Of a stretch of 33,236 bases of DNA, positions 10,893 to 14,481 are shown one piece after another (positions within the stretch are counted from its first letter, which is position 1; the number at the start of each line of letters is the position of its first letter). Under the pieces are notes generated by a model. That model saw only the letters and a list, made by a program, of their open reading frames with translations. It was not told where the DNA came from and made no database searches. The stretch comes from Crocinitomix sp. (GTDB lineage: Bacteria; Bacteroidota; Bacteroidia; Flavobacteriales_D; Crocinitomicaceae). Position numbers and translations under genes: made by a program. The stretch spans positions 1 to 33,236 of the forward strand of contig JAURQI010000164.1 of NCBI GenBank assembly GCA_030836155.1. The letters run 5' to 3'.

Positions 10893-11420
10893 TTAGGCTG
10901 AAATCGATATGCCAGGAGCTGAATCGTAACTTAGCTCCACCCGTTCAAAGCTTTCTTTTTCAAGGTTGTATACGCGACACTCGTCAATAGGTGAAGCATA
11001 TAAATGCAAGGTCATAGACCGTTGTTTTGTTGGGTTGATTATAGAATGAAATCCCATTCGGTCATGCATATAAGTCATGCGTCCTTGAGGTAATTCCATG
11101 TGATTGGTTTCGACTATTTGACCTTCTTGATGAGCATATCGCTTTTCGCAAACTGTACCTTGAACCTGATAGACCCAGCAGTCTTGACCACCATGCCCGT
11201 GAATAGGAGTTATCGCTTCAGCGTCCCAACAAAGGAGTATCAGTTCAAATTCATTCGTACGTTCAATGCAGTTTCTGGTGTAGCCATCAGATTTCCAAGT
11301 GGCGTAGGCTTCAAAGTCAGCCGTGGGGATTTCGATTCGCTTAAGAACGCTTCCCTGTTCGGAAGGCTCCGTATCATTTAAGGCTTCGATTAATTGTTCG
11401 ATTGTCTGGATAGTTTGCAT
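10893..11420 (-). CDS. Cysteine dioxygenase, Cys-Tyr cofactor type (175 aa)
   Basis: A cupin-fold, Fe(II)-dependent enzyme that oxidises L-cysteine with O2 to cysteine sulfinate in the cytosol. The metal ligands are His74 and His76 (PIHGHGG) and His125 (MGFHSI). Tyr47 and Arg49 (GYTRN) match the substrate-binding Tyr58/Arg60 of mammalian enzymes. Cys81 lies seven residues after His74, exactly as Cys93 follows His86 in the rat enzyme, and TLHLY (Thr137, His139, Tyr141) matches the Ser153/His155/Tyr157 triad. The protein should therefore be able to form the Cys-Tyr crosslink, which most bacterial homologues lack because they carry Gly at this position. It is divergent from the decarboxylase gene at 11560, which would use its product. 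Length is slightly below the roughly 200 residues of the animal enzyme. Confidence 0.92.
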   Translation of the reverse strand: MQTIQTIEQLIEALNDTEPSEQGSVLKRIEIPTADFEAYATWKSDGYTRNCIERTNEFELILLCWDAEAITPIHGHGGQDCWVYQVQGTVCEKRYAHQEGQIVETNHMELPQGRMTYMHDRMGFHSIINPTKQRSMTLHLYASPIDECRVYNLEKESFERVELSYDSAPGISISA

Positions 11421-11459
11421 AGTCTTTAGATAAGTCTAGTTGGTGTAGTTTGTAAAATA

Positions 11460-11496
11460 CAAAAGTAATCAAAAAATGTCGAAAAATGGTCAAAAA
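11460..11496 (-). promoter_or_regulatory. Promoter of the cysteine dioxygenase gene
   Basis: On the minus strand, TTTTTG (11496-11491) is followed by a 23-bp spacer and TACTTTTG (11467-11460), a match to TTG-N17-23-TAnnTTTG. Transcription would start near 11456, about 35 nt before the ATG. The element lies inside the phased A-tract array. Confidence 0.65.
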
Positions 11497-11538
11497 CAAT
11501 CTAAAAATGGCTCAAAATTTTAGTTTTTCGATTAAAAA
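11461..11538. promoter_or_regulatory. Phased A-tract (curved DNA) array in the divergent promoter region
   Basis: Eight A or T tracts of 4-6 bases lie at 11461-11464, 11471-11476, 11482-11486, 11492-11496, 11503-11507, 11514-11517, 11524-11528 (T tract) and 11534-11538. Their centres are 10-11 bp apart, mean 10.5 bp, which is one helical turn. Phased tracts like this bend DNA in one plane. The units resemble a degenerate repeat ending AAAAATGG. The array fills most of the gap between the two divergent hypotaurine-pathway genes. Confidence 0.8.
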
Positions 11539-11543
11539 TGGAG

Positions 11544-11551
11544 TAATTTTG
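11544..11551 (+). promoter_or_regulatory. -7 element of the decarboxylase gene
   Basis: TAATTTTG matches TAnnTTTG and ends 8 nt before the ATG at 11560, so the leader would be only a few nucleotides. No good -33 element is seen; the curved A-tract DNA lies directly upstream and may substitute for it. Confidence 0.6.
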
Positions 11552-11559
11552 ATTATTTT

Positions 11560-12960
11560 ATGACAAAATCAACGATGGAAGAATCACTTGAAATATTTAA
11601 TCAAATTACTCAAGACTTATTAAAAGATGAGAAAACAAATCCGGTAGCGCGACACATCCCTTCTGCTGAATTGTATGAAACGTTGGATTTAGGGTTGAAT
11701 GAAGATCCTATGGAGGATGCAGCGTTTTCAGAGAGCCTAAAAGAACTTGTTTTCTCCACACCGCGTACGTCAACAAATGCATTCTTTAATCAGTTGTTTG
11801 GTGGCAGAAATGGTAAAGCGATTTTAGGTGATTTGTTGGCTGTTATTATGAATAATAGTATGTACACCTATAAGGCGGCTGGCCCAATGGTAGGCGTTGA
11901 AAAGACTATTCTGAGAAAAGTATGTGACATGATTGGTTGGGATCATAATGCAGATGGAACATTTGCAACTGGAGGATCCATGACTAATTTTATGTCTATG
12001 CTGATGGCGCGCGATGCGTTTAACGATAAAATTAGAAAAGAAGGGCTAGCTCAAAAACTAACGGTCTATACGTCTGAAGAATCTCATTATAGTATTCCAA
12101 AGAACGCTGCTTTTTCTGGCATTGGTCGGGAAAACGTACGTTATGTGCCTACCGACAAATTCGGAAAATTAATTCCGGCTGAGCTTGAATCACAAATCAA
12201 AGCAGATATCGCCAATGGTTATCATCCCGTATTGGTAAATGCTACTGCTGGAACAACAGTATTAGGTGCTTTTGATCCTATTAAACCATTGGCAAAAATC
12301 TGCAAAGAATACAATGTTTGGTTGCATGTAGATGGTGCATACTGCGGCTCTGTTTTGTTTAGCAAAAAATATAAACATTTGATTGATGGCATTGAGGAGG
12401 TAGATTCTTTCAGTTTTAATGCGCACAAAATGTTGGGTACGCCACTAACTTGCTCAATTATTGTTGCAAAGAATAAAAAGTACTTACACGATTCATTCTC
12501 TAATGATGCGAGTTATTTATATCAAACAGACCATGATGATTTTAATCTCGGTAAAACATCTTTACAATGCGGTCGAAGAAACGACGCATTAAAGTTTTGG
12601 ACTTTGTGGAAAAGTGTTGGAACAAAGGGATTAGAAACAATGGTAGATCATCAGTTTAATCTAGCAGATGTTGCTTTAGATTATATTGTAGATAATGATG
12701 ATTATAAGGTTTACAGTTATCCAGATTCGATCTCAATTTGTTTCAATTATAAAGATATTCCGGCAAGAAATATTTGTACAGCTTTATATGAATCTTCTGA
12801 ATTATTAGTTGGATATGGTTCATTTGATGGAGAGGAATTCATTCGGTTAGTGACGATAAATGTGCAAAATGGACCAGAAGATATTTTACAATTCTTCAAG
12901 CAAATGGAAACGTTTGTAAGTGAGCATGAAGATCAGCTCAATCGCTTGACAAACGCATAA
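11560..12960 (+). CDS. PLP-dependent decarboxylase, probable cysteine sulfinate decarboxylase (466 aa)
   Basis: A group II pyridoxal-phosphate decarboxylase of the glutamate/cysteine sulfinate decarboxylase family. The cofactor lysine is Lys290 in FNAHKMLG. Asp258 (HVDGA) would pair with the pyridine nitrogen, and His176 (EESHYS) would stack on the ring. The substrate region FFNQLF...NNS places Phe80 and Ser100 exactly where mammalian cysteine sulfinate decarboxylase has Phe94 and Ser114 (as I recall them). Glutamate decarboxylases have FFNQLS and Asn at these positions. This, plus the adjacent cysteine dioxygenase, favours cysteine sulfinate to hypotaurine over glutamate to GABA. Aspartate, cysteate or glutamate remain possible substrates. 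It is followed 12 bp later by a sodium symporter gene, probably in one operon. Confidence 0.88.
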   Translation: MTKSTMEESLEIFNQITQDLLKDEKTNPVARHIPSAELYETLDLGLNEDPMEDAAFSESLKELVFSTPRTSTNAFFNQLFGGRNGKAILGDLLAVIMNNSMYTYKAAGPMVGVEKTILRKVCDMIGWDHNADGTFATGGSMTNFMSMLMARDAFNDKIRKEGLAQKLTVYTSEESHYSIPKNAAFSGIGRENVRYVPTDKFGKLIPAELESQIKADIANGYHPVLVNATAGTTVLGAFDPIKPLAKICKEYNVWLHVDGAYCGSVLFSKKYKHLIDGIEEVDSFSFNAHKMLGTPLTCSIIVAKNKKYLHDSFSNDASYLYQTDHDDFNLGKTSLQCGRRNDALKFWTLWKSVGTKGLETMVDHQFNLADVALDYIVDNDDYKVYSYPDSISICFNYKDIPARNICTALYESSELLVGYGSFDGEEFIRLVTINVQNGPEDILQFFKQMETFVSEHEDQLNRLTNA

Positions 12961-12972
12961 AATAAAATCCCT

Positions 12973-14481
12973 ATGATCAGTAAAATCATTGTACTTGCGA
13001 TCTACGTTGGAATTCTATTTCTGATTGGTATCGTGGCCTCACGAAGGATCAAAAGTATGAGTGATTTCTATGTGGGGGGAAAAAATATTGGCTATTGGGC
13101 CGTAGCTTTTTCTGCACGTGCTACTGGTGAATCAGGTTGGTTGCTTATTGGTTTAACCGGGATGGGCGCCATGGCTGGTTTGTCGGCTTATTGGGTAGTA
13201 GCCGGGGAGGTTTTAGGCGTAGCTGTATCTTGGTGGCTCATGGCTAAAAGGTTCAAGCGACGCTCTGATCGTTATGGTTCTATAACAGTTCCAGATTATC
13301 TAGAAAGTCATTTTAAGTCAACCCGACACACGCTGCGTATAATTGCGGCATCAGTATTGTCGGTTTTTGTTGTGATTTATGTGAGTTCGCAGATTGATGC
13401 AACTGGAATTGCATTTGAGTCTTTCCTAGATATGAATTATTACTGGGGAGCTATTCTTGGTTTTGTTATTGTTTTAGTCTACATTTTTATTGGTGGTTTT
13501 GTGGCTGTGGTTTGGTCTGATTTATTTCAAGGGCTATTGATGTTTATTGGTCTGGTTTTATTGCCAATTGTCGTTTGGTTCACAATGGATCATGGCGATG
13601 GTATTATTGCTGGTTTAAATACAATAGATCCAGCGTTGACCAATATTTGGGGTGGCCATGAAGATGTTTGGATGAATGTCTTTACATTGGTTGGATTTGC
13701 TGCAATTGGACTTGGGTTTCTTGGATCTCCACAAGTATACGTGCGATTCATGTCCATTAAAAGTGAAAAGGAAATTGACAAAGGAAAATGGGTTGCGATT
13801 ATTTTTACATTATTGACGGATATAGCAGCTGTGACCATTGGTGTTTTAGCTCGTTATATCTTCACAGAAGCGGGAGATGATGCGAGTTCTATTCTGGGAG
13901 TCGGAGGGAAAGAAGTATTGCATTTGATGACAGAAAACTTCTTACCTTATATCGTAACGGCCATTTATGTGGCTATCATTCTTTCGGCAATTATGTCCAC
14001 TATTGATTCGCTGTTAGTTATTGCTTCTAGCGCGATTACGAGGGATTTTTATCAAAAGATATTCAGACCTGATTTGAAAGACAAAGACTTAACGATTATT
14101 TCGCGTTATGTGACCCTAATTATGGCGCTGGTTGCACTGGCACTCGCCATGGCGATCGCCTATTTTTCGCCGGAGCGCCAAGTTTTCTGGGTCATTATTT
14201 TTGGCTGGTCTGGCATAGCTGCGACATTTTGTCCTGTCATTATCCTTTCTCTTTTTTGGAAAGGATTTTCAGAGAAAGGAGCAATTGCTGCTATGATCGC
14301 CGGGTTTTTGTCAGTCCCGCTATTCAATTTTTACCTCCAAAAACTCGAAACGGTCGGTCCGTATCTAGATAAGATGGATGTCTTAGCCCCGTCGTTTTTA
14401 ATCGCTATGATTTTCGGATTTATATTTAGTAAGTTATATCCGCCAGTGAAAAGACTCGATACAAGGCGCAAGTCGACTTAA
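12973..14481 (+). CDS. Sodium/solute symporter, PutP-like SSS family (502 aa)
   Basis: An inner-membrane transporter of the SSS family with about 13 hydrophobic helices and no cleaved signal. Residues 5-25 form helix 1. The loop SDFYVGGKNIGYW and the segment SARATGESGWLLIGL are characteristic of the PutP branch, where this region contributes to the sodium and substrate sites. LSAIMSTIDSLLVIASSAI near residues 337-355 is the conserved helix 8-9 region. It starts 12 bp after the decarboxylase gene without an intervening promoter or terminator, so the two are likely co-transcribed. PutP homologues carry proline, but the neighbourhood raises the possibility of a sulfur amino acid, a sulfinate/sulfonate or another compatible solute. 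The substrate cannot be read from the sequence. Confidence 0.9.
   Translation: MISKIIVLAIYVGILFLIGIVASRRIKSMSDFYVGGKNIGYWAVAFSARATGESGWLLIGLTGMGAMAGLSAYWVVAGEVLGVAVSWWLMAKRFKRRSDRYGSITVPDYLESHFKSTRHTLRIIAASVLSVFVVIYVSSQIDATGIAFESFLDMNYYWGAILGFVIVLVYIFIGGFVAVVWSDLFQGLLMFIGLVLLPIVVWFTMDHGDGIIAGLNTIDPALTNIWGGHEDVWMNVFTLVGFAAIGLGFLGSPQVYVRFMSIKSEKEIDKGKWVAIIFTLLTDIAAVTIGVLARYIFTEAGDDASSILGVGGKEVLHLMTENFLPYIVTAIYVAIILSAIMSTIDSLLVIASSAITRDFYQKIFRPDLKDKDLTIISRYVTLIMALVALALAMAIAYFSPERQVFWVIIFGWSGIAATFCPVIILSLFWKGFSEKGAIAAMIAGFLSVPLFNFYLQKLETVGPYLDKMDVLAPSFLIAMIFGFIFSKLYPPVKRLDTRRKST

Follow-up and report, generated by a model that had tools for sequence, protein, structure and literature searches.

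In animals, cysteine is converted to hypotaurine, the precursor of taurine, by a two-step route consisting of a cysteine dioxygenase (CDO) and a cysteine sulfinate decarboxylase (CSAD). Little is known of the bacteria that produce taurine, a major organosulfur currency of the sea. Here we analyse a stretch of 33,236 nucleotides from Crocinitomix sp. (hereafter, the window). It is a whole contig of 33 kb (C129) from an assembly that totals 3.19 Mb and is 94% complete. The window contains a CDO gene, a divergently transcribed gene for a group II decarboxylase dependent on pyridoxal phosphate (PLP), and, 12 bp beyond the latter, a gene for a symporter of the sodium:solute symporter (SSS) family (Table 1). 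Bacterial taurine synthesis has been termed sporadic in a study of sponges (PMC10356861). A bacterial pathway composed of CDO and CSAD was described by Agnello et al. (2013, ACS Chem Biol), as cited in PMC8153620 and PMC10356861, and the expression and purification of a bacterial CSAD is likewise cited in PMC8153620.

We consider it quite likely, judging from sequence comparisons, that the three genes in the window form a module leading from cysteine to hypotaurine, together with a symporter that handles a solute on this route. CDO would oxidize cysteine with O2 to cysteine sulfinate, and the decarboxylase would remove the alpha-carboxylate of cysteine sulfinate to yield hypotaurine, which might in turn become taurine, either by the action of another enzyme or chemically. 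The Na+ symporter would move a solute of the pathway, most likely in the uptake or re-uptake of hypotaurine or taurine, or in the supply of cysteine or cysteine sulfinate. What we infer is the chemistry of the two steps, the solute that the symporter carries, and the purpose of the module in the cell, which may be to provide a compatible solute or an antioxidant, or to dispose of cysteine. The decarboxylase and the symporter, given the 12-bp gap, are probably co-transcribed.

Conservation of the locus supports this reading. A scan of a collection of species genomes matched 517 relatives of the decarboxylase, among which we examined 80 loci; a tree of the decarboxylases was constructed by a quick tree method, and 245 genomes of the order were surveyed, 45 of which carry the decarboxylase. 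CDO adjoins the decarboxylase in 38 of the 80 loci, divergently as in the window in 37 cases and in tandem in one. Within the order, 34 of the 45 decarboxylase-bearing genomes have a CDO, and the two genes are nearly always adjacent (an exception is G183, in which they lie on different contigs). The trio occurs in two layouts. In one, found in the window, in G016 (split over two contigs), and in many other genomes, the CDO gene diverges from a decarboxylase–symporter pair; in the other, the symporter gene diverges from a CDO–decarboxylase pair (G001, G005, G006, G165, G167, G170, G174, G175, G179, G251). Where CDO is linked and the locus has room downstream, a symporter of this subfamily adjoins in 20 of 34 cases, versus none of the 33 unlinked loci (Fisher P 3e-8, uncorrected for relatedness). 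The remaining neighbours of the decarboxylase group by lineage only. That the trio survives rearrangement into two layouts speaks for function over inherited gene order. The conserved neighbourhoods show that the association among CDO, decarboxylase and symporter is not due to chance. A sequence-only reading of the window had described this arrangement of three genes, with which our open reading frames (ORFs) and Pfam matches agree; and the neighbours in close relatives, which that reading had proposed to survey, are not random.

In one genome the first two genes are fused. A single 622-aa ORF in G182 (L200:3756-5624, + strand) joins the CDO and decarboxylase domains; nothing else points as directly to the two predicted enzymes acting in sequence. 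Its CDO half is complete (Y52, R54, H79, H81, C86, H129, H143, Y145), its decarboxylase half carries Phe245/Ser265, and the linker between them contains no ATG or GTG codon and one TTG, at codon 155. The fusion occurs in one assembly, about 90% complete, and could reflect an assembly error; a simple frameshift between tandem genes is an unlikely origin, since the C-terminal stretch of CDO and the second start are both missing.

The window CDO, which is the single CDO of its genome, aligns with rat and human CDO1 such that Tyr47/Arg49 correspond to Y58/R60, His74/His76/His125 to H86/H88/H140, His139/Tyr141 to H155/Y157, and Cys81 to C93. It therefore possesses the three-histidine metal site, the Arg60, and the Tyr58/His155/Tyr157 set that define an Arg-type CDO, and the metal and substrate residues are complete, as the sequence-only reading had stated. 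In a comparison with solved structures, 3-mercaptopropionate dioxygenases score far below animal CDO1. All 45 aligned decarboxylase-linked CDOs are of the Arg type, with the catalytic residues and the Cys93/Tyr157 pair invariant. These two residues are cross-linked in animal CDO; the window protein, although it shares every catalytic residue with animal CDO1 along with the equivalent pair (Cys81/Tyr141), is bacterial, and a cross-link in it is putative. The pair is typical of eukaryotes, and the cysteine is missing from many bacterial CDOs (PMC4019311).

The best solved relatives of the window decarboxylase are animal CSAD (2jis, 276 bits; 6zek), GADL1 (6enz, at a nearly equal 274.5 bits) and glutamate decarboxylase (GAD). 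It has the group II PLP fold, and its PLP lysine, Lys290, sits in an NAHKM motif; similarity to solved CSAD and CDO settles the predicted folds of both enzymes. In the alignment with 2jis, Phe80 and Ser100 fall on residues 116 and 136 of the chain; assuming a 22-residue tag in the construct, these would be Phe94 and Ser114 of human CSAD, the selectivity positions. The window enzyme resembles animal CSAD in that Phe and Ser occupy its specificity positions, but it is only a distant relative, has a shorter N terminus, and its substrate is predicted. In the described enzymes, a serine of the GAD pocket is replaced by Tyr in GADL1, and the pocket contains Tyr in GADL1 or Phe in CSAD (PMC7367687).

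Among the 80 loci, the six from Brumimicrobium all encode Tyr80; they group as a single clade and are without CDO. The top solved relative is GADL1 for the Brumimicrobium enzyme and CSAD for the window enzyme, with gaps of only a few bits. The Brumimicrobium orthologues (L034, L035, L077, L086, L098, L099, L120, L122) are GADL1-like in having Tyr80, and their genomes lack both CDO and PanD; the window enzyme differs from GADL1 and from archaeal aspartate decarboxylases of related classes in having Phe, and its genome in having PanD. Elsewhere in the order (families f2/f4), genomes without PanD encode a 33-35% identical enzyme (L043:6268-7698, L044-L046, L204-L206) with conserved neighbours of its own, and the L043 copy is closer to animal CSAD (354 bits) than the window's enzyme is. 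Decarboxylases from Alphaproteobacteria (Kordiimonas, Algimonas, Hellea, Caulobacterales; L101, L103, L106, L121, L126, L130, L131, L135, L136, L141) nest in the Bacteroidota tree beside Chitinophagaceae copies, an apparent lateral transfer without CDO. The window's genome also contains a second, short PLP decarboxylase-like ORF, possibly truncated, adjoining a QueD-like gene (G000:C84:1919-2605; L048:1694-2464).

The symporter has the SSF domain and retains the Ala/Ser/Thr positions of the Na2 site. It is 30% identical to PutP and shares Ala53, Ala337, Ser340 and Thr341, which we take to be the Na2-site positions. It differs from PutP elsewhere: in all 48 linked symporters, in both layouts, Arg40, Asp55, Met56, Trp244 and Tyr248 of PutP are replaced by Lys, Gly, Glu, Ile and Phe, respectively (the Glu opposite Met56 is Glu53 in the window protein). 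Trp244 and Tyr248 are, we assume, proline contacts in PutP. We rejected membership in PutP on the scores (334.7 against a cut-off of 515.5 for TIGR02121, and 234 against 955 bits for a second PutP model) as well as on the uniform Ile at the Trp244 position. The symporters form a uniform subfamily that is probably not a proline transporter. Since the symporter goes with CDO and does not follow the decarboxylase by itself, a sulfur amino acid, hypotaurine or taurine is a likelier substrate than aspartate or beta-alanine. The functional link that the sequence-only reading had proposed for the symporter is supported by its adjacency in CDO-linked loci.

The same genes admit a different role. Given the same chemistry, the module could serve the disposal of excess cysteine or the use of imported cysteine, with the symporter importing cysteine or cysteine sulfinate, and hypotaurine being excreted instead of retained as an osmolyte. 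The PutP-like, amino-acid branch to which the symporter belongs is consistent with this proposal, as is the fact that CDO, and not the decarboxylase, is the gene to which the symporter is tied; but the family members in the collection come largely from marine or saline taxa, which also fits the handling of an osmolyte, and we regard this role as rather unlikely. A glutamate decarboxylase producing GABA alongside a GABA/glutamate symporter, as in acid-resistance systems, is hardly credible. The window enzyme does share its PLP class with animal GAD, but it scores 26 bits against a cut-off of 380 for TIGR01788, on which basis we rejected GAD membership; its conserved partner is CDO and not a glutamate/GABA antiporter; and its specificity-pocket position holds Phe, while the Phe or Tyr of the CSAD/GADL1 type goes with no use of glutamate (PMC7367687).

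Aspartate is a more substantial competitor to cysteine sulfinate as the substrate. PanD is missing from 33 of the 245 genomes of the order: from 22 of the 45 with the decarboxylase and from 11 of the remaining 200 (Fisher P 2e-11, with no correction for relatedness, which inflates it). On the decarboxylase tree this pattern requires about eight changes, and because at least six are forced by well-supported branches, the association is not the result of one event. In genus g22, for example, 7 of 8 decarboxylase-bearing genomes lack PanD, and 42 decarboxylase-less genomes have it. Every one of the 11 genomes of the order with the decarboxylase but no CDO, reflecting about three separate losses of CDO on the tree, also lacks PanD; the seven Tyr80 genomes lack CDO and PanD and keep PanC. 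Among the 11 PanD-less genomes without an orthologue, 7 carry the 33-35% identical enzyme of the CSAD/GAD class, and the other 4 are assemblies of 90-92% completeness. Of 41 genomes tested, 38 keep PanC, and therefore beta-alanine needs some source. The simplest reading of these patterns is that enzymes of this kind, including those with Phe80, accept aspartate for decarboxylation; the class can probably make beta-alanine also, or instead, and in relatives without PanD the decarboxylase probably supplies it. Alternative sources would be uptake or the pyrimidine route, which has been described (PMC7142369). The decarboxylase of the window might, then, be mainly an aspartate 1-decarboxylase that, like archaeal homologues of GAD and animal GADL1, provides beta-alanine for pantothenate and coenzyme A (CoA), its linkage to CDO marking a second or an older activity. 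The archaeal precedent is quoted in PMC7142369. But both PanD (C163) and PanC are encoded in the genome from which the window comes, so that such a role is unneeded there; CDO still lies beside the decarboxylase in 11 PanD-less genomes; the CDO fusion and the CDO-dependent linkage of the symporter point to the cysteine branch; and about 19 of the 23 CDO-less Phe80 genomes, reached through the collection loci, do have PanD, which the aspartate proposal leaves unexplained, so that replacement of PanD does not account for every member. We therefore judge a mainly aspartate-directed enzyme to be improbable. Two narrower ideas were discarded: that the window enzyme is itself a replacement for PanD (PanP), given the PanD of its own genome and a score of 139 versus 606 bits for the PanP model; and that Tyr80 marks PanD-less and Phe80 PanD-containing genomes, since PanD is also absent from 11 genomes that have CDO and a Phe80 enzyme.

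The hypotaurine module nevertheless has to be weighed against several observations that count against it: some CDO-linked loci lack a symporter; the Phe/Ser motif occurs in about 23 CDO-less genomes among those tested, and also in the 33-35% identical class from PanD-less genomes; and the presence of the decarboxylase tracks the absence of PanD in the order, pointing to aspartate activity in at least some members. Since the Phe80 form is also found in those CDO-less genomes, the motif is supportive of cysteine-sulfinate specificity and not diagnostic of it. The sequence-only reading, which took Phe80/Ser100 as the mark of a CSAD, was right about the residues, but the motif alone is no proof. 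Its broader proposal of a hypotaurine module gains from the conserved trio, the two layouts and the fusion, and is qualified by the PanD pattern, which makes aspartate activity likely, at least in relatives. Linkage to CDO and the fusion favour a preference for cysteine sulfinate, while the complementarity with PanD seen in relatives suggests that aspartate is used as well; in the window's genome, because it has PanD, cysteine sulfinate is the likelier main substrate. A fuller scenario, which in our estimate falls somewhat short of probable, would combine both: an enzyme with dual cysteine-sulfinate and aspartate activity would have repeatedly taken over the supply of beta-alanine after loss of PanD within the order, and the loss of CDO and PanD in Brumimicrobium, with the change of Phe80 to Tyr, would have given a dedicated aspartate decarboxylase, paralleling the split between animal CSAD and GADL1, with the linked SSS protein a transporter of the hypotaurine/taurine pathway.

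The spacing between the divergent CDO and decarboxylase genes is about 70-175 bp across 36 divergent loci. A scan of these 36 intergenic regions for a promoter of the form TTG-N17-21-TAnnTTTG returned a single forward match and no pair; we therefore dropped the idea of a promoter or operator shared by the two genes, and we claim no regulation for the module. Comparison with the loci of relatives indicates that the module does not share its conservation with a nearby 119-aa ORF, a DUF1456 gene or two-component genes. Two further ORFs of the window are included in Table 1.

Table 1. Features of the window, with strand and best matches (Pfam cut-offs: CDO_I, 23 bits; Pyridoxal_deC, 27 bits; SSF, 22.8 bits).
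Feature	Position	Strand	Remarks
Cysteine dioxygenase (Arg-type CDO), 175 aa	10893..11420	-	CDO_I 65 bits; animal CDO1 the best solved relatives
Intergenic region between divergent CDO and decarboxylase, 139 bp	11421..11559	.	should hold both promoters; spacing class conserved
Group II PLP decarboxylase, CSAD/GADL1/GAD class, 466 aa	11560..12960	+	Pyridoxal_deC 274 bits; residues in next line
Decarboxylase residue codons: Phe80; Ser100; PLP Lys290	11797-11799; 11857-11859; 12427-12429	+	
SSS-family sodium:solute symporter, distinct PutP-like subfamily, 502 aa	12973..14481	+	SSF 265 bits
Bacterial alpha-2-macroglobulin-like protein, 2047 aa	777-6920	+	MG2, A2M and bMG10 domains
ORF, 253 aa	14796-15557	-	no Pfam match

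The ability to make hypotaurine may be widespread among marine Bacteroidota, because 517 relatives of the decarboxylase were matched and about half of those examined are linked to CDO. The symporter subfamily, now defined, offers a candidate for transport in the pathway. The natural Phe/Tyr variants, from CDO-containing and from PanD-less genomes, are a ready set for studying the choice between cysteine sulfinate and aspartate, and they suggest an unrecognised source of beta-alanine for CoA. Neither the symporter link nor the complementarity with PanD turned up in our literature search, which covered few subscription journals. As far as the citing papers describe it, the pathway of Agnello et al. 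in Synechococcus sp. PCC 7335 resembles the present locus in having both enzymes and in the logic of selectivity at three active-site positions. The system described here differs in occurring mainly in Bacteroidota, in its divergent or tandem CDO gene, in the CDO–CSAD fusion, and in the linked SSS symporter. The chemistry is known, and what is added here is the transporter, a bacterial CDO of the animal type, the fusion, and a probable second substrate.

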